This document shows positions 4,622-54,321 of a stretch of 59,816 nucleotides of DNA, in pieces. The stretch lies in assembly GCA_027451445.1 (NCBI GenBank), contig DAIDJG010000306.1, positions 1 through 59,816 of the forward strand, in the 5' to 3' direction. The DNA is from Singulisphaera sp. (lineage in GTDB: Bacteria > Planctomycetota > Planctomycetia > Isosphaerales > Isosphaeraceae). Made by a program: the position numbers and the translations under genes. The notes under the pieces are model-generated. The model searched no databases, had not been told where the DNA came from, and saw only the letters and a list, made by a program, of their open reading frames with translations. The first letter of the stretch is position 1. Each line of letters opens with the position of its first letter.

Positions 4622-7600
4622 TTATCGAACCGTCCGCGCGATCCGAAAGCCGCCCGAGTACAGGGTCATAGTGACGTGCGCTCCGTAACGGACGCCCGAG
4701 CGCAGATTGCGAGCAGGTGCATTGAATGCCCCGCCGCGCACACTCCGAGTTCCTTCGTGAGTGACGATCGGTGCGTCAATGACCGGACCGTCCGCCGGAG
4801 GCGTGGGATAGGGAATCACGAACGAGTCCTGACACCACTCTTCGCCGTTGCCGAGCATGTCGAACAATCCCAGGTCGTTGGGTTTCAGTGAGCCGGCAGG
4901 GCTTGGCTCTTCAAGATCGGCACTCATCGTCCACATATAGCGAAACATGTAGGTTGGGCTGTCCCCGAACGGACGTTCCGCCGTGCTCCCGGCACGGCAC
5001 GAGTACTCCCACTCCGCCTCGGTAGGGAGCCGGTAGCCGGAACGATTCAGGTAATCCGGATAGGGGAGAAATCCGTTCGTCATCAAAACCGTCTCGGGCG
5101 GATAGCACTGCTGGTCCTCGGTCAGGCCCTCGATCTCGCCGAGCCAGCGGCAATAACTCATGGCGTGGCCAATCATAAGTTCGATCGCTGGCGTCCGCGA
5201 CGGGTGATACTGACCGCGCCGGTATTGCGGGCGAAAGGCCTGGTATTGTTCGATCGTTGTCTCTTCGGTCGCGATGGCAAACGAGCGGCCGATCAGGCGA
5301 CGGTGCCGGGTATCGTCCCTCCGGAACTTCGGCCCCCCGTCCCCGGATCCCATCACAAACTCGACCGGACCGCGGACGATCGCGAGCGTGTGTCCCTTGG
5401 TATTGACGTACCAATCTCGGTCCGACGGCATGTCCGCCGAGGCCATGGCTTGCCGCCGCTGCATCATCTCGTCCTGCCGTCCCCAGCGTTTTAAGAGCCA
5501 CTCCGCCGCGGAGTGAACGCCGGGATCGGGGTCGTCCGTGAAGTACGAGACGATTCGGGGGATCAACTCGGTGCGCTCGGCAGGCGAAATCTGAGAGTTC
5601 GAGTATTCACCGAGGGTGAGCAGCAGAGCCCGACGGGCGGACACGTCGGTTTCGCGCGTCAGCCGGTCCGTGATGATCTCAGGCGCGACCTGAGAGGGCG
5701 CGGCCCGGTGGATCAGGGTCGTACGCAGGTCGTCCACGGGCCGCTGACGAAAAAGCGGCCAGACCGGCTCAGGCTTTCCCAGTGCAAGCAGCGCCAAGGC
5801 AAGATTCGCCCGCTTTCGCGTCGTGGCGGCCGGATCACTCCCTTCGCTTCGGAGCGACTCCGCGAGGTCGGATTCGAGGAGCGCAAGAGCCGGCCGGCCA
5901 AAGGCCGCCAGCTTGGATTGAAGGACCACGGACTGGTCTCGTTCGGCCACGTGCAGCAGATCGATCACGGGCCGAGGGTCGTCAACGGTATCCGCAAACA
6001 CGAAGGCGGCGGCGTCGGCCTCGCCAGGGTTCTCGGCACGTCGAAATGCGGAGGCGAGGTCGTCGCGCAGCCAGTGCTGCACGGGCCGCAGCAGGCTCGA
6101 CCATTCGGCGAGTGTGAATCGGTTCATCGCCACCAGCCACGAAACGATCTCCGACGCGTGCGTTCGCCACGCGGCGCTGTTGGGGTCGAGGGTCGCCAGC
6201 GCGCACGCGGCGCGAAGGCGCCGTCCCTTATCCTCTCGGGGGGCTTCCAGCGTTCGTTGGAGCGATTTCGACGCCTTGCCGGCCCAGGGCTTGAGGGCCT
6301 CGCGGATGATCGTCAGCTCGGCTGGATTCGCAGTCAAGATCCGCTCTTCCAGGTAGGCCGACTGGGACGGGTCGGATGGCAAGAGCGCCAGGGCAAGCGG
6401 GAGCCGCGCAGGAGCGTCGCGGGAGACCTGCGCGAGGCGACGTCGGAGGATCGGGTCCGTCCAGCGCCGATAGCCTTCGAAATCACGGATCCGCCGGGGG
6501 AGCCGCGTGACCTCCACCTGTCCAAGCGTGTCGACCAGAGATTCAGCCCGTCTCGCGGCACTCTGCTCGCGGGCCCAGGCCATGATCGCACCGAGAGCGA
6601 GCACAGCGAGGAACACGACGGCGACCAGGCCGGCTGTCGACGGGTGTCGTACGACCCACTTCCACGCTCGCTCGGCCGGGCCCGCGGGCCGAGCCTGGAT
6701 CGGCTTCCCGTCGAGGAACCGTTCCAGTTCGTCGGCCAGCTCGCCACTCGTCTTGTAGCGCGCCTCGGGCTTCTTTTCCAGGCACTTCAGGCAAATCGTC
6801 TCGAGATCGCGCGCCACGGCTCTGTTGAGCAGTCGAGGCGCAACGGGGTCCTCGTCGAGAACCTGGCGCAGCGTTTCGATCGCCTCGGCCGCGCGGAAGG
6901 GCGGGCGGCCGGTAATCATCTCGTAGAGCGTTGCACCCAGATTGTAAATATCCGAGGCGGGGCCGATCGTCGACAGCCCGCGGACCTGTTCGGGCGACAT
7001 GTAGCTGGGCGTTCCGAGGCGGTCGCCGGTCTGGGTCATCCTCGAATCATTTGCCAGCGATTTCGCCAGCCCGAAGTCGGCAATCAACGGGCGGCCGTCC
7101 CGATCCACGAGGATGTTCGACGGCTTGATATCGCGGTGAAGAATCTCTTTCTGATGTGCGTACTCGACCGCCCGAGCGATGGGCACCATCAGGCGCGCGG
7201 CGGCTTGATTGTCAAACGGTCCTCCCCGGAGCATGACGGCCAGGCTCCGCCCGTCCACGTAGCGCATCGCGTAATACGGGTGGGTGCCGAACGCACCGAC
7301 ATCGTAGACAGTGACGATGTGATCGTGCGTTAGGCCCGCCATCGCGGTGGCTTCGAGGTGGAACCGTCGCACGGCCGATTGGGAAAGGCGTGGGCCGTTT
7401 TCGCCCGTGAGCTCGGGCGTGACGCACTTGAGCGCAACGATGCGGTTCGCACTCCGCTGGCGGGCGAGGTAAACGATGCCCATGCCGCCCCGGCCCAGCA
7501 TTTTGAGGATGAGGTAGTCACCCAGCTCGAACTTTCGAATGGTCGTTGCGTCGGGCGCGAGCGAGAAGCCGTCTTGATCGTCCTCAAGCAGGGTCGTCGG

Positions 7601-7846
7601 CGCCCTTGTCGGCTGCTCGACGTCGTGATTCGGCGAATCTTGTAGACCCCAATCCGGGAACCACGACTGCGTGTTGGGAATGTTGATCGACGCCACGGTA
7701 TCGGGGAGCCCCGAGGGATCATCCACGGGGTGATTCGGATCATCGGGCTCCGTGGGAGCCAGCGCGTCGCCGTTGCGCCCTGACTTTCGAGGCGGGTGCT
7801 TCTGGTTCGCGCCGTTACCCTCGTGCTGAGACGATGGATGATCCAT
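4622..7846 (-). CDS. Ser/Thr protein kinase with C-terminal SUMF1 domain
   Basis: A Hanks-type kinase of about 1074 residues. Residue numbers here count from a TTG seven codons upstream. The N-terminus (1-110) is polar and low-complexity. The kinase domain (about 117-390) has all key motifs: glycine loop LGRGGMGIVYLA, K147 in VALKCV, HRDIKPSN at 244 and DFGLA at 264. One membrane helix (about 414-436) follows, then a HEAT-like helical region. A formylglycine-enzyme/sulfatase-modifying-factor domain fills the end (about 840-1081), with GYRLPTEAEWEYSCRAG and SVRGGAFN. SUMF1-like domains on planctomycete kinases are thought to bind ligands rather than oxidise cysteine. The ATG at 7846 has GGGAG just upstream. 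It is followed by the Cys-rich gene on the same strand. Confidence 0.9.
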   Translation of the reverse strand: MDHPSSQHEGNGANQKHPPRKSGRNGDALAPTEPDDPNHPVDDPSGLPDTVASINIPNTQSWFPDWGLQDSPNHDVEQPTRAPTTLLEDDQDGFSLAPDATTIRKFELGDYLILKMLGRGGMGIVYLARQRSANRIVALKCVTPELTGENGPRLSQSAVRRFHLEATAMAGLTHDHIVTVYDVGAFGTHPYYAMRYVDGRSLAVMLRGGPFDNQAAARLMVPIARAVEYAHQKEILHRDIKPSNILVDRDGRPLIADFGLAKSLANDSRMTQTGDRLGTPSYMSPEQVRGLSTIGPASDIYNLGATLYEMITGRPPFRAAEAIETLRQVLDEDPVAPRLLNRAVARDLETICLKCLEKKPEARYKTSGELADELERFLDGKPIQARPAGPAERAWKWVVRHPSTAGLVAVVFLAVLALGAIMAWAREQSAARRAESLVDTLGQVEVTRLPRRIRDFEGYRRWTDPILRRRLAQVSRDAPARLPLALALLPSDPSQSAYLEERILTANPAELTIIREALKPWAGKASKSLQRTLEAPREDKGRRLRAACALATLDPNSAAWRTHASEIVSWLVAMNRFTLAEWSSLLRPVQHWLRDDLASAFRRAENPGEADAAAFVFADTVDDPRPVIDLLHVAERDQSVVLQSKLAAFGRPALALLESDLAESLRSEGSDPAATTRKRANLALALLALGKPEPVWPLFRQRPVDDLRTTLIHRAAPSQVAPEIITDRLTRETDVSARRALLLTLGEYSNSQISPAERTELIPRIVSYFTDDPDPGVHSAAEWLLKRWGRQDEMMQRRQAMASADMPSDRDWYVNTKGHTLAIVRGPVEFVMGSGDGGPKFRRDDTRHRRLIGRSFAIATEETTIEQYQAFRPQYRRGQYHPSRTPAIELMIGHAMSYCRWLGEIEGLTEDQQCYPPETVLMTNGFLPYPDYLNRSGYRLPTEAEWEYSCRAGSTAERPFGDSPTYMFRYMWTMSADLEEPSPAGSLKPNDLGLFDMLGNGEEWCQDSFVIPYPTPPADGPVIDAPIVTHEGTRSVRGGAFNAPARNLRSGVRYGAHVTMTLYSGGFRIARTVR

Positions 7847-8356
7847 GATCTCCCATTCCCCGCTCAACCAAGCCGACCATCGCTCCCAGCCGGGTGCGCA
7901 CCGCGACGATTCTATGACCAGCAGTAAAGGTTACCTGGTTTTAGCCTTATGTGCCATGCCTGCGATCGAGGAACCCTCTCACGCCAATGACTCCTGGTGA
8001 TCGCGATCCTAGATCCTGACGTTTGCTCAACGTACGGGCGCTAGGCTTCCCAAGTCTCCGCCCCCGGGTCATGGTTTGCCGAAGCGAACCACGCGCCTTT
8101 GTGAGCGCTCAACCGTCATCGATGACGAAAAACTTACCACACCAAAATCGCGCGGAGCCCGGGAAAACACCGCGTCGAATCACCATCGCGGGTGGCAAGA
8201 GCTAACGACTTACCCGGAGCATATAAAGTAGGGAGTTGTGTGAGTCCCGGATCTCCGCGTTGTTCCGGGCAACGGCTCATGGCGACGTTCCGATTCGACG
8301 TTGGCTCATGAATCTGTCGCACCACGGCAAGGCAGAGTCCTGTCTCGCGGGGGACG

Positions 8357-8478
8357 CTACCGCATGCGAGGGATACGAACCGTCGGGGACGCACACAGAG
8401 CACATCCGCGGCACATGACGCCGCGCTCGAACGCGCTTCATTCACAGGACGTCGTGCCGGCTATGAGCCCGCATGCGC
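8357..8478 (+). repeat. Direct duplication, left copy
   Basis: This segment matches 8941-9058 across blocks such as CGCGCTCGAACGCGCTTCAT and CACAGAGCA, with scattered substitutions and small indels. The two copies flank the MITE-like element. Confidence 0.55.
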
Positions 8479-8502
8479 GCGGCCAATTTGGTAATTCGTA
8501 AA

Positions 8503-8880
8503 CGCTCGCCGGTTGGATCGCGAAAATGGGAGAGGTCGGGTGGCTGGGTCGAGCCCACAGGGCGATGCCCCCGGACGTTTAGATCGTCCGCGCGGACTGG
8601 GGACATCGCGCTGCGGGCTCGACCTCAGCCACCCGCCCGTGCATCTCTTCGGTATTCTGTACGAAGGTATATTTCGGATATTTCGTAAATCTCGGAGCAA
8701 TTTTCGTGCACCTCTTCGGTGACCTGCACGGAGGTATATTTCGGATATTTCGTGAATCTCGTAAGCGCTCGCCAGTCGGTGCGCGAAGCTGGGAAACGTT
8801 GGGTGGCTGCGGGCTTGACCGTAGCCACCGGCCCTCGGCGGGCATCTGCTAAAGATATGGCGCGCACCAACTGGCGAGTG
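8503..8880 (+). mobile_element. MITE-like element with terminal inverted repeats, copy A
   Basis: The ends are inverted relatives: CGCTCGCCGGTTGGATCGCG at 8503 and CGCGCACCAACTGGCGAGTG at 8861. A third TIR-like copy is internal at about 8764. Inside are a hairpin-forming segment (about 8540-8640) and two tandem units of about 57 bp (8639-8696 and 8706-8762) that share GGTATATTTCGGATATTTCG. The same order of parts occurs in reverse complement at 52477-52929. It encodes nothing, so it would depend on a transposase elsewhere. The classification is inferred from structure. Confidence 0.55.
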
Positions 8881-8889
8881 CTAGGGTTT

Positions 8890-8943
8890 CTTCTGCATTT
8901 GGATAGGTTGTCACCGTGCGTAATCCAACCATTCGGCGCTCTA
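8890..8943 (+). repeat. Dispersed 40-60 bp repeat, copy 2
   Basis: TCACCGTGCGTAATCCAACC followed by ATTCGGCGCTCTA matches 607-664 with two substitutions in the core. It abuts the right end of the MITE-like element. Confidence 0.6.
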
Positions 8944-9058
8944 CCGCCTGCGAAGGGATACGATTCTTGGGGCACCGACACAGAGCAGATTGGAGGCACG
9001 CCGCGCTCGAACGCGCTCCATTCACGGGACGATCGTGCCGGCTACGAGCGCGCGCAAC
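8941..9058 (+). repeat. Direct duplication, right copy
   Basis: Partner of 8357-8478, in the same orientation and separated from it by the MITE-like element. Confidence 0.55.
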
Positions 9059-9111
9059 GACGAGTCCGTCTTGACGACCGCCGAAAACGAGATTGCGCAT
9101 GTGCGCGCGCG

Positions 9112-9162
9112 ATTCGGTAATTCGGAACCCCAAGGCTAAAAAGGGGTTCCGAATTACCGAAT
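9112..9162. repeat. Perfect 20-bp hairpin
   Basis: Arms 9112-9131 and 9143-9162 are perfectly complementary over 20 bp around an 11-nt A-rich loop. There is no T-run and no adjacent gene end, so it is not an obvious terminator. Parts of the arm recur alone near 9177 and 9487. Confidence 0.65.
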
Positions 9163-9712: not shown

Positions 9713-10441
9713 TCAGGGATAAGTCCGTTCGATAATCGCTCGAAGTTCGGCGGGATATCGCGTCCACGCACTTTGATATGCGGCTTCTAAAGGGGCGCGG
9801 ATATAGCGGGTCTCGGATAGGAACAGCGGAGCGGACGGAAGCGGATCGCCAATGCCGACGGACTCCACGTAAGCCGTGGGAATCTCGCCTGCGAGATAGG
9901 ACGCAACGATCAGCGGCTTGCCGGGGGGCGCTTCAAACGGCTCATCACCCAGTTCGTCCCAGATCGCTTTGTGAATGCCCTGAGGATCACGAGGTGTCGG
10001 CGGGAAGAGGTCGATGACTAAGAGATTCACGCCTTGATTAAGGATGTCAGCGGCCTTCTCGACAAAGGAGCGTAGGGCGGAGTGGCTGGATTTGTTTCCG
10101 GGTGAAAGGATTTCGATCACGGCGACGACTGTTCCGTACCCGTGGCGAATGACTACGCGGTCGGCCCGTTTCGCGTAAGTTAGGGTCTCAATCCGGGAGA
10201 TGACACGGGCGGTCGGCGGCGCCTCTGTGACGGCTATTCCACCCTCAGACCCTTTTTTCGGCTCGCGCGTCTGAAGCGTGACGACGTCCGGGATGGGTCG
10301 GCCCGTGACCTGTTCCACCATCGCGATATAGCCCGGCGGCAGCAGTCCAGCATTCAGGGCGTAACGGATTTCCATTGCCCAAGACTGGTGGAAGTCGTGA
10401 AAAGCACCCGCCTCGACGCGGGTCCAATCGTGCACTGGCAT
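9713..10441 (-). CDS. DUF4058 family protein
   Basis: About 242 residues starting MPVHDWTRVEAGAFHDFHQ, the typical N-terminus of DUF4058, a family expanded in planctomycetes and cyanobacteria with no assigned function. The middle (VVAVIEILSPGNKSSHSALR) resembles a PD-(D/E)XK-like core, suggesting a nuclease-related fold. The ATG at 10441 is chosen because family members begin MPVHDW; the longer frame to 10477 adds atypical residues. It stands alone between the repeat-rich gap and the aldolase gene. Confidence 0.8.
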   Translation of the reverse strand: MPVHDWTRVEAGAFHDFHQSWAMEIRYALNAGLLPPGYIAMVEQVTGRPIPDVVTLQTREPKKGSEGGIAVTEAPPTARVISRIETLTYAKRADRVVIRHGYGTVVAVIEILSPGNKSSHSALRSFVEKAADILNQGVNLLVIDLFPPTPRDPQGIHKAIWDELGDEPFEAPPGKPLIVASYLAGEIPTAYVESVGIGDPLPSAPLFLSETRYIRAPLEAAYQSAWTRYPAELRAIIERTYP

Positions 10442-10529
10442 GTCCTGAACTCCTCGGGCCGATCTCAATTGTAGCATTACCTCGAAGATCCTCGATACCG
10501 AGTTTCGCCCGGTTCGTCGTAATCACGTG

Positions 10530-49022: not shown

Positions 49023-52000
49023 TCATTTCGAGGATTTCTCGGTGTCGGGATTGCCCGTCGTCACGGACGGTTCGGTCACGCGTTTGCGGGCCGCTTCGAG
49101 CCGGGGTTGGGCCGCCTCGGCGCTGGGGTCCTTGGGGAACTTGGTGCGGAGCCGTTCGTAGGTTTCGACCGCGTCGGCCCACTCGCCGAGCTGTTCGTAG
49201 ACTTTTGCCGCTTCGAGGAGTGCGGCGGCCTGTGCGGAGGGGGCGTCGAAGAGGATGTCGACCTTGAGGAATTCGCGGAGGGCGTCGTGATACGCCTTCT
49301 GGTGGAAGAACGTTTCCCCGCGCATCAGTTGAGCACGGGCCGCGAGGTCGCCGCCTTTGCGGGCCTTGATCACAGTGTCATACGCAGCGCGGGCCTCGTC
49401 GAAGCGGGGCGGGCTCAGGCTCTGGAGGGCGCGACCTCGTGCGTATTCGATGTCAGCGACCCGAGCGTCCTCGGGTGCGTCTTTCTTGAGCGCATCGGCC
49501 TCGTCGAGCACGTCCTTCCAGCGGCCGAGGGCGACCAACGCCTGGAGCCGGCGTTCGCGAATCGACAGGGCGAAGCCTTCCGGATCGCCGGGCGCGGCAG
49601 GCTCTGCGGCGAGGGCGGCGAACGCCTCCTCGGCGGTCTTGGGGTCGTCGGACCGCAGGGCGACATCGGCACGCCGGAATTTGGCTTCGCGGCGGTACAC
49701 GCTCTCCGGAAATTCCTTGAGAAACCGGTCGAGCGACTTCGCGGCGCCGGGCCAATCCTTGCGCTCCGCCTGCGTCCGGCCAAGGAGGAGCAGGGCGGGC
49801 TCGACGAGCCGCGGCTCCGCCTGGGATCCCTCGGCGACGATCGGCTCGACCAGGGTGACGACTTTCTCGCTATCACCTGACTTTCGCGCGGAGAGCGCGA
49901 GATTGAACCGAGCGTCGGCCGCGTGAGGGCTCTCCGGGAACTCGTTCAGGAGCCGATCGAAGACCTTGTCGGCCTCTGCGCCTTTGTTGGCGTCGACCAG
50001 CGCCCAGCCCCATTCGATCAGGGCCTCGTCGAGCCCGATGCCTGCGTCTTTTTTCGGATCGGGGTGATCGGCGACGAACTTCTCGAACGCTGCGGCGGCC
50101 TCCGCAGCGTGGTTCGACTCGCGCAGGAGCCGCGCGCGGCTGAGCTGCGCGAGGGCGGCTTCCTTCGATTGAGGGTACTTCGTCACAACGACGTCGAACG
50201 CCGCCAGGGCGGGCTCGGTCTGGCCGGCCCGTTCGAAGGCGCGGCCGCGGCCGAGCGCTGCGTCCGGAGCCAGGGGATCATCGGGCTTTGTGTCCAGCAG
50301 AACGGCGAACGTTGCGGCGGCGTCGGCCGGCTGGTTCGCTTCGAGCTGCGCCCAGCCCAGACCGGAGCGTGCCCTGGTCTGGAGTGCAGGTTCACTGGAC
50401 TCGGCCACGAGCCGGAAGAGTGCAATCGCCCGGTCATACTGTTTGGCGGCGAGTGCGGCTTCGGCAAACCGAAGCCGGGTCGTGCCCAGTGTCTTGCTCT
50501 TCGGGAACCGCGTCCCGAGGTCGTCGAGCGCCCTGGTCGCTTCGTCAGCCTGTCCTTGTTCGAGATACGCAAGCGCCAGGCGAGCCAGCGCATGGTCGGC
50601 CACTTCGCCGTCCGGCTTGGCGTCGAGGTACTTCTTGAGGGCGGGGATCGCCTCGGCGTATCGCTTGGCGTCGAAGTGCCCCTGACCGACGAGGAACTGA
50701 GCCTCGGTCGCCGCGGGTGCGGCGGGTGTCTCCACGAGCGAGTCGAGGAGCTCCTTGGCCTTCTCCGGCTGCTTGTCGGCCTGGTACGCCAGGCTCAAAT
50801 AATAGCGCTCGCTCTGGGCCGTCGCTGCTGTCGGATTGTCGTCGGCCAGCGACGCGTTGAGCAGTGTGATCGCTTCCTTCGCCTGCCCGGCTCCGAGCAA
50901 CGCGCGGGCCTCGATCAGACGGACATCGGCGCGCAAAGGGCTCTGCGGGAACCGCTCGGCGAACGAGGCGCTGAGTGCCTTCGCACCATCCCTGTCGCCC
51001 GCTTCGAGTGCAAGCCTCGCCGCGTGGAGCAGCGCGTCGTCCGCCCAATCGTCCTTGGGGTCAACCTCGGCCGCCTTGAGAAACCGAGCGCGTGCGTCGT
51101 CTGTCTGCTTCAGCTTCTCTTGCGCCTCGGCCGACCGGAAGAGCAGGGCGGCGGTGAGGGGCGACCGGTCGAACCGATTCAGGGCATCGTCGAACGTCGC
51201 GAGTGCCTCGGCGGCCTGACCGCGTTCGAGCCGTGCGGTGCCGAGGTCAAACGCGGCCTGCGCTTTGAGGGTCTGCGCTGCGTCGCCCGTGATGAGGGCC
51301 TGGAAGCCTTTCTCCGCGTCTTCGAACCGGTCGAGCTTCACCAGCGATTCTGCCCTGCGCAGGCGGGCCTCGCCCAGGAGCGTGCTCTGCGGCGCAACAT
51401 TCTCCAGTGTCTCGAACGCCTCGATCGCGCGCGGATATTCGCTCGCCCTGAGGTGGACGAGGCCGATGTGGAACCAGGCCTTGTCGGCCCAGTCCGGTCC
51501 GCCGTGTTCAGCGAGGTCGGCAAATACCTTGAGGGCTGCTTCCGACTCTCCCTTTTGACGGGCGAGCGTTTGTCCCAGCCCGAGCTTCGCCCGATCAGCC
51601 AGCCGGCCCTTGGGGAAGTCCGCCAGTGACTTCTCGTAGGCAAGGCGAGCCTGCGGCAAGTCGCCGAGTCGCAAACAAACGTCGCCGAGGTAGGTCCAGG
51701 CGGTTTCGTTAAAGCGGTGTTTGGGATACGTCGCCGTGTACGTCTCCAGCGCCCGACGCGCGGCGGGGATGTCGCCGAGCATGTACGCGGCCTCTCCCAC
51801 GCGGTACTGCGCCGTCGGCACGTTGGGATGGTCGGGCGCCGTGTTCAGGAACTCTTCGAATGCCTTGCGCGCCTGGGCATACTGCCCCTGAAACAGCCGC
51901 GCGCTGGCCAGTCCGAACCGGCCCTCATTCGCAAAGGGACCGGGCTGAGCATCCTTCAAGAACCGCTCGTATTCCCGCGCAGCGTCCTTGTACCGGCGCT

Positions 52001-52187
52001 CGCGAAACAGGCCGTTGGCAAAGTTCAGGTCTTCGGGCACATTGCGCGCGGGCGCGTTTTGCACCTGCGCCGTCGCGTTGCCGACCAGGTTGATTCCCAG
52101 AGTGAGCGCCAGCGTCCAGGACGCCAGCCACGGGCGGGCTTGAGACGAGCGGAAGGGCACGGGTCCGTCTCCCTTGGACGTCGGCAT
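49023..52187 (-). CDS. Exported TPR-repeat protein
   Basis: A 1054-residue protein with an N-terminal signal peptide or anchor (SWTLALTLGINLVGNATAQ) and then an almost continuous array of TPR-like helical pairs in the YbgF/BamD style (DAAREYERFLKDAQPGPFAN, ARKAFEEFLNTAPDHPNVP, DAVETYERLRTKFPKDPSAE). Probably a periplasmic scaffold. It is upstream of the toroid protein gene on the same strand; TPR and toroid proteins are commonly neighbours in planctomycetes, often with ExbB/ExbD, which are absent here. The charged tail ends EPSVTTGNPDTEKSSK. Confidence 0.88.
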   Translation of the reverse strand: MPTSKGDGPVPFRSSQARPWLASWTLALTLGINLVGNATAQVQNAPARNVPEDLNFANGLFRERRYKDAAREYERFLKDAQPGPFANEGRFGLASARLFQGQYAQARKAFEEFLNTAPDHPNVPTAQYRVGEAAYMLGDIPAARRALETYTATYPKHRFNETAWTYLGDVCLRLGDLPQARLAYEKSLADFPKGRLADRAKLGLGQTLARQKGESEAALKVFADLAEHGGPDWADKAWFHIGLVHLRASEYPRAIEAFETLENVAPQSTLLGEARLRRAESLVKLDRFEDAEKGFQALITGDAAQTLKAQAAFDLGTARLERGQAAEALATFDDALNRFDRSPLTAALLFRSAEAQEKLKQTDDARARFLKAAEVDPKDDWADDALLHAARLALEAGDRDGAKALSASFAERFPQSPLRADVRLIEARALLGAGQAKEAITLLNASLADDNPTAATAQSERYYLSLAYQADKQPEKAKELLDSLVETPAAPAATEAQFLVGQGHFDAKRYAEAIPALKKYLDAKPDGEVADHALARLALAYLEQGQADEATRALDDLGTRFPKSKTLGTTRLRFAEAALAAKQYDRAIALFRLVAESSEPALQTRARSGLGWAQLEANQPADAAATFAVLLDTKPDDPLAPDAALGRGRAFERAGQTEPALAAFDVVVTKYPQSKEAALAQLSRARLLRESNHAAEAAAAFEKFVADHPDPKKDAGIGLDEALIEWGWALVDANKGAEADKVFDRLLNEFPESPHAADARFNLALSARKSGDSEKVVTLVEPIVAEGSQAEPRLVEPALLLLGRTQAERKDWPGAAKSLDRFLKEFPESVYRREAKFRRADVALRSDDPKTAEEAFAALAAEPAAPGDPEGFALSIRERRLQALVALGRWKDVLDEADALKKDAPEDARVADIEYARGRALQSLSPPRFDEARAAYDTVIKARKGGDLAARAQLMRGETFFHQKAYHDALREFLKVDILFDAPSAQAAALLEAAKVYEQLGEWADAVETYERLRTKFPKDPSAEAAQPRLEAARKRVTEPSVTTGNPDTEKSSK

Positions 52188-53301
52188 CCCGAAACGTCAC
52201 TACGTGATGAGGATCGGAAGCGGGTACCAGGGACGCGCAATTCCCTGCGTCGTCCTCGAGGCACGTCGAAATTCGTTATACCCGTTTTCGCCGTTTTCAC
52301 TCAAGGCGAGGGGGCGCGTTCCCTCGATAGGCGCTACGCCACAGTCATTGCAGCGCGGCTGGTCCGACCAATCCAAAAGCACAGCGCGAAGGATGTTGCC
52401 TGAACCTCGGGCTGTGCGCAAAGATTCGCACATGGTATTCGAAAAACGCCACTGAAATATCCGAAGAATTCCCTAACGTTCGCCAGTTGGTGCGCGCTAT
52501 GTCATGAGGAGATGTCCGCCGCGGGTAAGTGGCTGGGTCGAGCCCGCACGAGCGACACCCCCCTCGATCGGCGCAGATACCCCAAACACCCGAACCTATC
52601 ATCCTTGCGGAGTCGATCCCAGTCCGCCAAAATTTCTCATGTTTCCCGCGCCAACAGGCGTGCGCTCACGAGATTTACGAGATATCCGAAATATACCCCC
52701 GCACAGGTCCTGGAATAGGTGCACGAAGAACGCTCCGAGATTTACGAATTATCCGAAATATACCTCCGTACAGACCACACAACACGTGCACGGGCGGGTG
52801 GCCGGGGTCGAACCTGGACGGGCGATGCCCTTGACCGTGTGGGCGGTCCAAAACGTCCGGGGCATCGCTCTTGCACGCTCGACCCTGGCCACCCAACGTT
52901 TCCCACCTCCGCGCACCAACTGACGAGCGCGTACAAGAATCCTGAGAAATGCTGTCTGACGCGTGTCATAGATCGCGGCCAGTTGGGTGCGTGGCGGCTC
53001 TCTCTCCATCGAGCCAGGTCGTCGCGCCCTGGTGGATTGGATCGGACCCGCCGGGGTTGCCGGCATGTCAGGAATTTGCCGAACTATTGTACACTAAGTG
53101 TCCAGGAAAGTCAATCGGTCCGATGAGAAACAGATCATCCCGAAATTGCCTCCGTGCTGTCCTTTCGGCGAGTCATGGAATCGTCCGCGTGTAGAGCCAT
53201 GGATGAAACACCGATGAGGAATTCTCTGAATCTTGAATCCATGTTTCAACGGTGTCTCATCCTTGGCCGTGACCTCTTTAAACTAGAAATCTCCGCCCGA
53301 A
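52188..53301. other. Intergenic region with MITE-like element
   Basis: This 1.1-kb gap has no credible gene. It contains the inverted copy of the MITE-like element (52477-52929). Nothing is recognised in 52188-52470; 52930-53301 shows only AT-richer patches near 53085 and 53270. Confidence 0.55.
52477..52929 (-). mobile_element. MITE-like element with terminal inverted repeats, copy B
   Basis: Relative of 8503-8880 in reverse orientation. Ends are CGTTCGCCAGTTGGTGCGCG at 52477 and, inverted, GCGCACCAACTGACGAGCG at 52911-52929. Two internal units (52669-52724 and 52736-52791) share ATCCGAAATATAC, and the hairpin-forming segment lies at about 52795-52900. It is about 75 bp longer than copy A, mostly in the part left of 52660. 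Confidence 0.55.
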
Positions 53302-54321
53302 TCATTTCTTGAGTTCGTGGCTCTCGACCTTCACTCCCTTCTCGTATCCGTTGAAACCGAACTTGTGCGGATGAAACTCACCGACGATCGCCACGTCGCT
53401 CTTGGGCGAAATCTTCTCGTCCATCCCGATGGCCCAGTACGTTGCGTTCACAAGCATCCGCCGCGTCCCTTCGCTCTCCAGGTCGGGTGCGGCCCCCATT
53501 GTGGTGTTGAAAACGCGTCCTGTCTTGCCCGAGTCGTTCTTGTACGACTTGATCCACGCGACAGGCATCATCGGGTCGTTCTTCTTCCCCTTGGCAGGCT
53601 CGCTGTCGGGCTTCATTCCGTCGAGGACCTGCCCGAGAACCAGGGGCTGGCTATCGCCTGGCAGAGGCAAACGCACGCCGTAGACGTCAGTGCTACCCCA
53701 GATGTCGCCGTCCTTGATCCCTCGCAAAATGGGATGGCTCTCCATGCCCGGCGCGATGATTCCACGGGTGCTCTGCTTGCCGTGATCGCCGTGATGGCTG
53801 ATCCAGGTCTCGCCGAGAATCTGGCGGCCGAAGCCGCCGTCCCACTCCTTGCTTTGCCAGGAGAAGCGGGAGAATTCCTTGCTCTTCGGATTGTTGAACG
53901 CGTGTGTCGCGGTGCGCATGCCGATGATGGGCCGGCCGGAGTCGACGTACTCGGCGACGTATTTCATCTGGTCGTCGGGCAGGTTGCGGAAGCGCGTGAA
54001 GAGGATCATCAAGTCGGCCGTCTTGAGCGCCTCGAGCCCTGGGATGTTGTCATTCTGGTTCGGGTCGATCGTGCCGTCCTTGCCGATGGCGAACAGCACC
54101 GTGCACTTGAACCCGTGGCGAACCGCCAGGATCTTGCCCAGTTGCGGCAGGGCCTCTTCGGAGCGGTACTCCTCGTCGCCGCTGATCAGGACGATATGTT
54201 TCCCGCGGCCTGGCCCTTCTGACCCTTCGTAGACGACCCACGGGTCCGCCGCTCGCGCCTGGGCGCCAAGCATAAGGAACAGGGACAGGATCAGGCCGAA
54301 GGGATGGGCTGTTCGCAGCAT
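53302..54321 (-). CDS. Exported ThuA-like protein
   Basis: A 339-residue protein with signal peptide RTAHPFGLILSLFLMLGAQA. The body resembles the ThuA-like class I glutamine amidotransferase-related fold: GKHIVLISGDEEYRSEEALP, LKTADLMILFTRFRNLPDDQ, YVDSGRPIIGMRTATHAF and GRVFNTTMGAAPDLESEGTR. ThuA-like proteins are linked to sugar use in other bacteria; exported forms abound in planctomycetes, with unknown substrate. It stands alone. Confidence 0.85.
   Translation of the reverse strand: MLRTAHPFGLILSLFLMLGAQARAADPWVVYEGSEGPGRGKHIVLISGDEEYRSEEALPQLGKILAVRHGFKCTVLFAIGKDGTIDPNQNDNIPGLEALKTADLMILFTRFRNLPDDQMKYVAEYVDSGRPIIGMRTATHAFNNPKSKEFSRFSWQSKEWDGGFGRQILGETWISHHGDHGKQSTRGIIAPGMESHPILRGIKDGDIWGSTDVYGVRLPLPGDSQPLVLGQVLDGMKPDSEPAKGKKNDPMMPVAWIKSYKNDSGKTGRVFNTTMGAAPDLESEGTRRMLVNATYWAIGMDEKISPKSDVAIVGEFHPHKFGFNGYEKGVKVESHELKK

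Follow-up and report, generated by a model that had tools for sequence, protein, structure and literature searches.

Composite hairpin MITEs and their 8-bp target duplications in a genome of the Isosphaeraceae

Described miniature elements include TIMEs, which are MITEs derived from Tn3, and TIME-COMPs, which are composites of two such elements (PMC4133298). The nearest published analogue of the elements analysed here is the TIME-COMP, in which two gene-poor inverted-repeat miniatures bracket a stretch of DNA and are mobilised together with it in trans, generating a target duplication (PMC4133298). TIMEs present 38-bp Tn3-type ends, 5-bp duplications and kilobase-long gene cargo (PMC4133298), whereas the present elements have ends of about 24 bp, 8-bp duplications and a cargo of 0.1-0.4 kb made up of repeats or non-coding DNA. 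Furthermore, no link to Tn3, from which TIMEs derive, was seen for the present elements.

Other described systems share part of this design. BrickBuilt, from Porphyromonas gingivalis, is likewise an intergenic, multi-copy MITE with internal tandem repeats and inverted-repeat ends, but it is built from 23-bp units without spacers, and not from 57-bp units that recur at a 67-bp spacing and are enclosed by two hairpin MITEs (PMC4596501). QMITE2, from Coxiella burnetii, is also a bacterial MITE; its duplications measure 7-9 bp and its ends 23-29 bp, and its predicted stem-loop is very stable. It differs in sequence and host, and the review passages that describe it mention no compound form (PMC10969869). 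The ends of the IS66 family have been described as 20-30 bp long, starting with GTAAGCG and accompanied by 8-bp repeats (PMC11946415), and the present elements resemble this family, including its single-ORF ISBst12 group, in their 8-bp duplication and GTAAGCG left tip (PMC11946415, PMC12898284).

A limited literature search returned no description of such elements in the Isosphaeraceae, which is weak evidence of novelty. The family adds a further case to a class of mobile DNA that is already known, and it does not seem to be a new system. The analysis documents composite MITEs in the Isosphaeraceae, with clear duplication evidence for movement as units, and it leaves knowledge of transposition unchanged.

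Two compound copies in the window and their family

The window, that is, the whole stretch of 59,816 nucleotides analysed, corresponds to contig 306 in the draft genome of a member of the family Isosphaeraceae, which comprises 10.9 Mb in 622 contigs. It contains two old copies of a compound element, copy 1 at 8498-8885 (plus strand, 388 bp) and copy 2 at 52472-52934 (minus strand, 463 bp), with boundaries set by alignment to the family and by the register of the target-site duplications. A previous sequence-only reading had placed these segments at 8503-8880 and 52477-52929; the segments are real, and their true ends lie 5 bp further out on each side. The same reading had proposed opposite-strand copies with the same order of parts, and alignment to the family confirmed this arrangement, which runs in both copies from an end through a hairpin, two 57-bp units, an internal end in the same direction and a second hairpin to an inverted end. 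The two tandem 57-bp units that it had reported are also present, with the correction that the 57 conserved bases recur every 67 bp.

In copy 1, the left terminal end GTAAACGCTCGCCGGTTGGATCGCG (8498-8522, plus strand) is followed on the same strand by hairpin 1 (8538-8634, about -77 kcal/mol as RNA), the two 67-bp-period units (8638-8694, with 57 conserved bases, and 8705-8761), the internal end copy GTAAGCGCTCGCCAGTCGGTGCGCG (8761-8785) and a remnant of hairpin 2 (8802-8829), which has collapsed through the loss of about 75 bp relative to copy 2. The inverted right terminal end, with tip CCTAGCACTCGCCAGTTGGTGCGCG, occupies 8861-8885 on the minus strand. In copy 2, the left terminal end GTACGCGCTCGTCAGTTGGTGCGCG (52910-52934), hairpin 1 (52796-52894, about -67 kcal/mol as RNA), the first (52736-52792) and second (52669-52725) 67-bp-period units, the internal end copy GTGAGCGCACGCCTGTTGGCGCGGG (52647-52671) and a decayed hairpin 2 (52529-52624, about -38 kcal/mol as RNA) lie on the minus strand, and the inverted right terminal end CCTAACGTTCGCCAGTTGGTGCGCG (52472-52496) on the plus strand. 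Copy 2 retains a target-site duplication at 7 of 8 positions (AAGAATTC at 52464-52471 and its partner AAGAATCC at 52935-52942). The flanks of copy 1 (GGTAATTC at 8490-8497 on the left, GTTTCTTC on the right) agree at just 5 of 8, the duplication being eroded or lost.

Both copies are intergenic, as had been stated, and the genes on each side were checked. Copy 1 lies between a gene with kinase and FGE-sulfatase domains (4622-7867, minus strand) and a DUF4058 gene (9713-10477, minus strand), copy 2 between a TPR gene (49023-52187, minus strand) and a ThuA gene (53302-54321, minus strand), and no ORF of at least 150 aa is found inside either copy. The end word has six matches in the window with up to two mismatches, against 1.16 expected. 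Where alignable with BLASTN, the copies are about 78% identical, and since their longest identical run is only 20 bp, the 44-kb inversion between them that had been envisaged is unlikely to arise by recombination now. On either side of copy 1 lies another repeat, direct and imperfect (8369-8500 and 8936-9162). Copy 1 is located at GGTAATTC of the first of these repeats, and the second continues into an inverted repeat whose 20-bp arms match perfectly, ATTCGGTAATTCGGAACCCC (9112-9131/9143-9162).

BLASTN searches of the genome with the two window copies returned 108 and 81 matching pieces, respectively, many of them overlapping or on both strands. The genome-wide search for the end sequence that the sequence-only reading had suggested gave 30 matches to the 24-bp end with up to two mismatches, against none for the reversed control. 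The window segments are hence two of dozens of dispersed copies in the host genome, a point that the sequence-only reading had missed. Just two diverged copies without conserved boundaries, the outcome which that reading had set against its own proposal, is not what was found: copies are many and their boundaries fixed. Profile searches over the family loci outlined a grammar of the form E-H-T-T-E-H-E', in which E stands for an end, H for a hairpin and T for a tandem unit, together with simpler forms; in compounds, two tandem units, at times one or three, lie between two hairpin MITEs. The elements are short (191-795 bp), lack a transposase gene, present fixed inverted ends and constant 8-bp duplications, and are dispersed in multiple copies. 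The MITE-like, compound build with terminal and internal repeats had thus been rightly recognized, and it is now backed by target-site duplications. An autonomous parent is often unknown for accepted MITEs and hence not strictly defining.

Named records with the same end as the window elements, by which the relatives of this genome were judged to be Isosphaeraceae, are an Isosphaeraceae MAG and Singulisphaera. The exact end pattern had two matches in the Isosphaeraceae among GTDB contigs, and the one Singulisphaera match checked presented lone ends only, without a transposase. Many contigs, such as C95, C203, C355, C37, C489 and C143, terminate within hairpin MITEs, and the palindromes of these elements are the likely reason for the contig breaks. 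One end pair, in L110, was left out, the contig start folding back on itself.

Target duplications and the movement of compounds

Duplications were scored in a register fixed by the end sequence, using mismatched end pairs as the null. Among 73 end pairs of the window family (family A), 11 presented an exact 8-bp duplication and 15 agreed at seven or more of the eight positions, against 0.4% and 0.8% in the null, which is approximate because its pairs share loci; two of the 11 exact pairs belong to a sister family caught by the same loose search. Exact duplications were identified around simple elements of 191-193 bp (C419, GGCAGATT; C475, GAAATATC) and around compounds spanning 387-634 bp (C176, AAGTTTTT; C253, GAAATTTA; C610, GATAGTTC; C425, GAGTTTTT; C570, GATATTTC; and also C589 and C272), and the compound at C274 matches at 8 of 8 positions (GAAAAATG) after a 1-bp shift in register. 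For duplications that read GATATTTC, its complement or GAAATATC, the flanks are an intergenic T-core motif and the identity may stem from this repeated target, making it weaker evidence; the remaining elements with exact duplications lie in unrelated flanks. Overall, simple elements and compounds (387-795 bp) both carry 8-bp duplications.

The T-core motif TTTCGGATATYTCGTAAATCTCGGA, made up of 9-bp iterations such as TATTTCGGA, has 62 occurrences in the genome, and its reversed control has none. Its sites include 8672-8696 and 52734-52758 in the window and L129-L135, and a sizeable share of them lie outside compounds.

Given such a target, compounds could be immobile as units, with simple MITEs repeatedly inserting side by side in a 67-bp repeat or hotspot motif. 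Several copies indeed occupy precisely the position GATATTTC^GTAAATC within the T-core motif; this motif is a favoured target, and nesting certainly occurs. However, many compounds that present unrelated flanks and exact outer duplications of their own have the internal junction AATCTC|GTAAGCG in common, with minor differences. A 795-bp compound consisting of two hairpin MITEs and about 400 bp of non-coding DNA occupies two sites (C13 and C468) with the same core and different duplications, AAAAGCCC (8 of 8) at one and AAAAAGTT/GAAAAGTT (7 of 8) at the other. Because copies with one internal junction occupy different target sites, the compounds appear to transpose as units, and these distinct outer duplications around a single inner junction largely refute the alternative as regards unit mobility. 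As a whole, side-by-side insertion into a hotspot is an improbable account of the compounds.

The composite organization, with two MITEs and a core behaving as one unit within a single outer duplication, was hence observed, and a 497-bp unit with an exact duplication on both sides (L363) was also detected. In G027, a near-complete relative, pairs of MITEs enclose an AT-rich hairpin, and these compounds show exact outer duplications AGTTTTTC, AAAAAAGG and CTTTTTTT. The cargo between the two MITEs at its loci L184, L185 and L187 is the AT-rich hairpin TTTAACCACGAATNACACNAATNACACGAAT, a different repeat. The compound design thus arose with different cargo, and the compounds of relatives in other genera are independent. 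In G001, a genome of the same genus inspected as a possible empty site, the region upstream of the TPR gene is alike over about 140 bp and then differs, without a clean empty site.

These data point to the following history. The simple 191-193-bp unit is a long hairpin enclosed by two inverted ends. As both simple units and compounds lie between exact 8-bp target duplications, a transposase supplied in trans has moved both, using the outermost ends only. The founding compound probably arose from two simple MITEs lying on either side of a pair of 67-bp repeats, with loss of the inner right end; from there it reached several sites as a unit, its internal junction being preserved, and the copies then decayed. 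The window segments are thus very probably copies of a non-autonomous composite MITE whose simple and compound forms were moved in trans, with an IS66-family transposase as the leading candidate helper, and a host function is not required to explain the element.

The duplications bear as well on the idea that these are extragenic palindromes of the REP/BIME type, moved by an IS200/IS605-like RAYT protein. With such sequences the elements share an intergenic location, palindromic structure, multiple copies and clustering. However, RAYT/IS200-type movement is not known to generate a target duplication, and the present units, of 181-795 bp, have inverted ends of about 24 bp and 8-bp duplications, which refute this reading and leave it a negligible probability. 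REPs themselves measure 20-40 bp (PMC3733652).

The sister family, family B, is a 181-bp hairpin MITE with a different hairpin and CCTGGCGCCCAAC tips, CCTGG being found at both. Its ends gave 54 matches, against none in the control, and exact duplications were present in 17 of 25 distinct elements. With a mean identity of 91%, as against about 78% between the window copies, family B is younger than the window family.

Folding and variation of the hairpin

The sequence-only reading had suggested that the element might encode a structured RNA and that it should be folded. The fold revealed a very stable hairpin, with a consensus of about -106 kcal/mol as RNA, an average of about -77 kcal/mol among copies and a lowest stability of about -38 kcal/mol. 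The host could then be retaining the element for a functional RNA fold, such as an attenuator, terminator or sRNA. Besides the stability of the hairpin, this would be consistent with the finding that, across 27 hairpin copies in which 91.8% of stem cells pair, 10 stem pairs carry changes in both partners, where shuffles gave 3.9 (the RNAalifold fold being partial, counts over the complete stem relied on a hand-written structure). Nevertheless, of the 17 cells with double changes, 8 represent a single subfamily marker (column 8/95), copies decay to the lowest value given above, and the palindrome is part of the mobile unit in all families. Moreover, Rfam returned no family match above the gathering score in the window, and elsewhere only weak sub-threshold matches, mostly to microRNA hairpins. 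Much of the hairpin variation comes down to a single subfamily marker together with decay; the structured-RNA suggestion is unsupported, and retention for an RNA function is very unlikely. The hairpin fits a once-perfect palindrome that is decaying slowly, with perhaps some pressure or templated repair maintaining its pairing.

Ends and candidate helper transposase

The composite MITE has unequal tips. In family A, the ends, of about 24 bp, present GTAAGCG at one side and CCTAG or CCTGG at the other, the end sequences being GTAAGCGCTCGSC and CCTRGCGCTCGSC, and a few copies (C419) show near-GTAA tips at both ends. IS66 copies of the Isosphaeraceae have GTAAGCG-type ends and 8-bp duplications, for instance AAATAACC and ATATCAGA. 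The MITEs share the duplication length and carry the GTAAGCG tip at one end instead of both; in addition, they lack an internal transposase, and their inner end CCAGTTGGTGCGCG is absent from the IS66 copies examined. The GTAAGCG tip and the 8-bp duplication suggest a helper of the IS66 family, against which stand the CCTAG/CCTGG tips, unlike those of the IS66 copies of the host and its relatives; we give this assignment an even chance.

A transposase gene with matching ends, for which the sequence-only reading had proposed to look, was not found; the tips of one IS66 relative are similar in part. Six matches to PF03050 were identified in the genome. The copy at C304 encodes an intact 478-aa frame, has an 8-bp duplication GTAGTTCA and agrees with the MITE tip at 12 of 20 tip positions. 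No autonomous element with both matching ends was detected in any locus searched, whether in the host genome, an incomplete draft, or in relatives. No such element was found between the widely spaced ends in relatives by local tblastn with two IS66 proteins, a search that distant IS66 or other transposases could escape, and tblastn with IS66 in the family loci was likewise negative. Because the opposite tip differs and no transposase element with matching ends was found, the element is filed as a MITE and not as a proven IS66 derivative.

The unequal tips (GTAAGCGCTCG and CCTRGCGCTCG) are conserved across several genera of the Isosphaeraceae, on MITEs with quite different interiors. They could be the signature of a not yet described transposase lineage, one whose ends are unequal and which has supported compound hairpin MITEs throughout the family, a prospect that we consider rather unlikely.

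Among the candidate parents, the intact IS66 copies at C145, C542 and C474 were discarded for lack of matching ends, C304 offering only a partial match. A subterminal match, CGCTCGCCAATTG, in the decayed copy at C50 was also rejected as the parent's end, alignment with C304 having placed the true ends elsewhere. This decayed copy (L159, G000:C50) is internally deleted, and the full-length copy at L157 (G000:C304) is nearly identical to it (96-97%).
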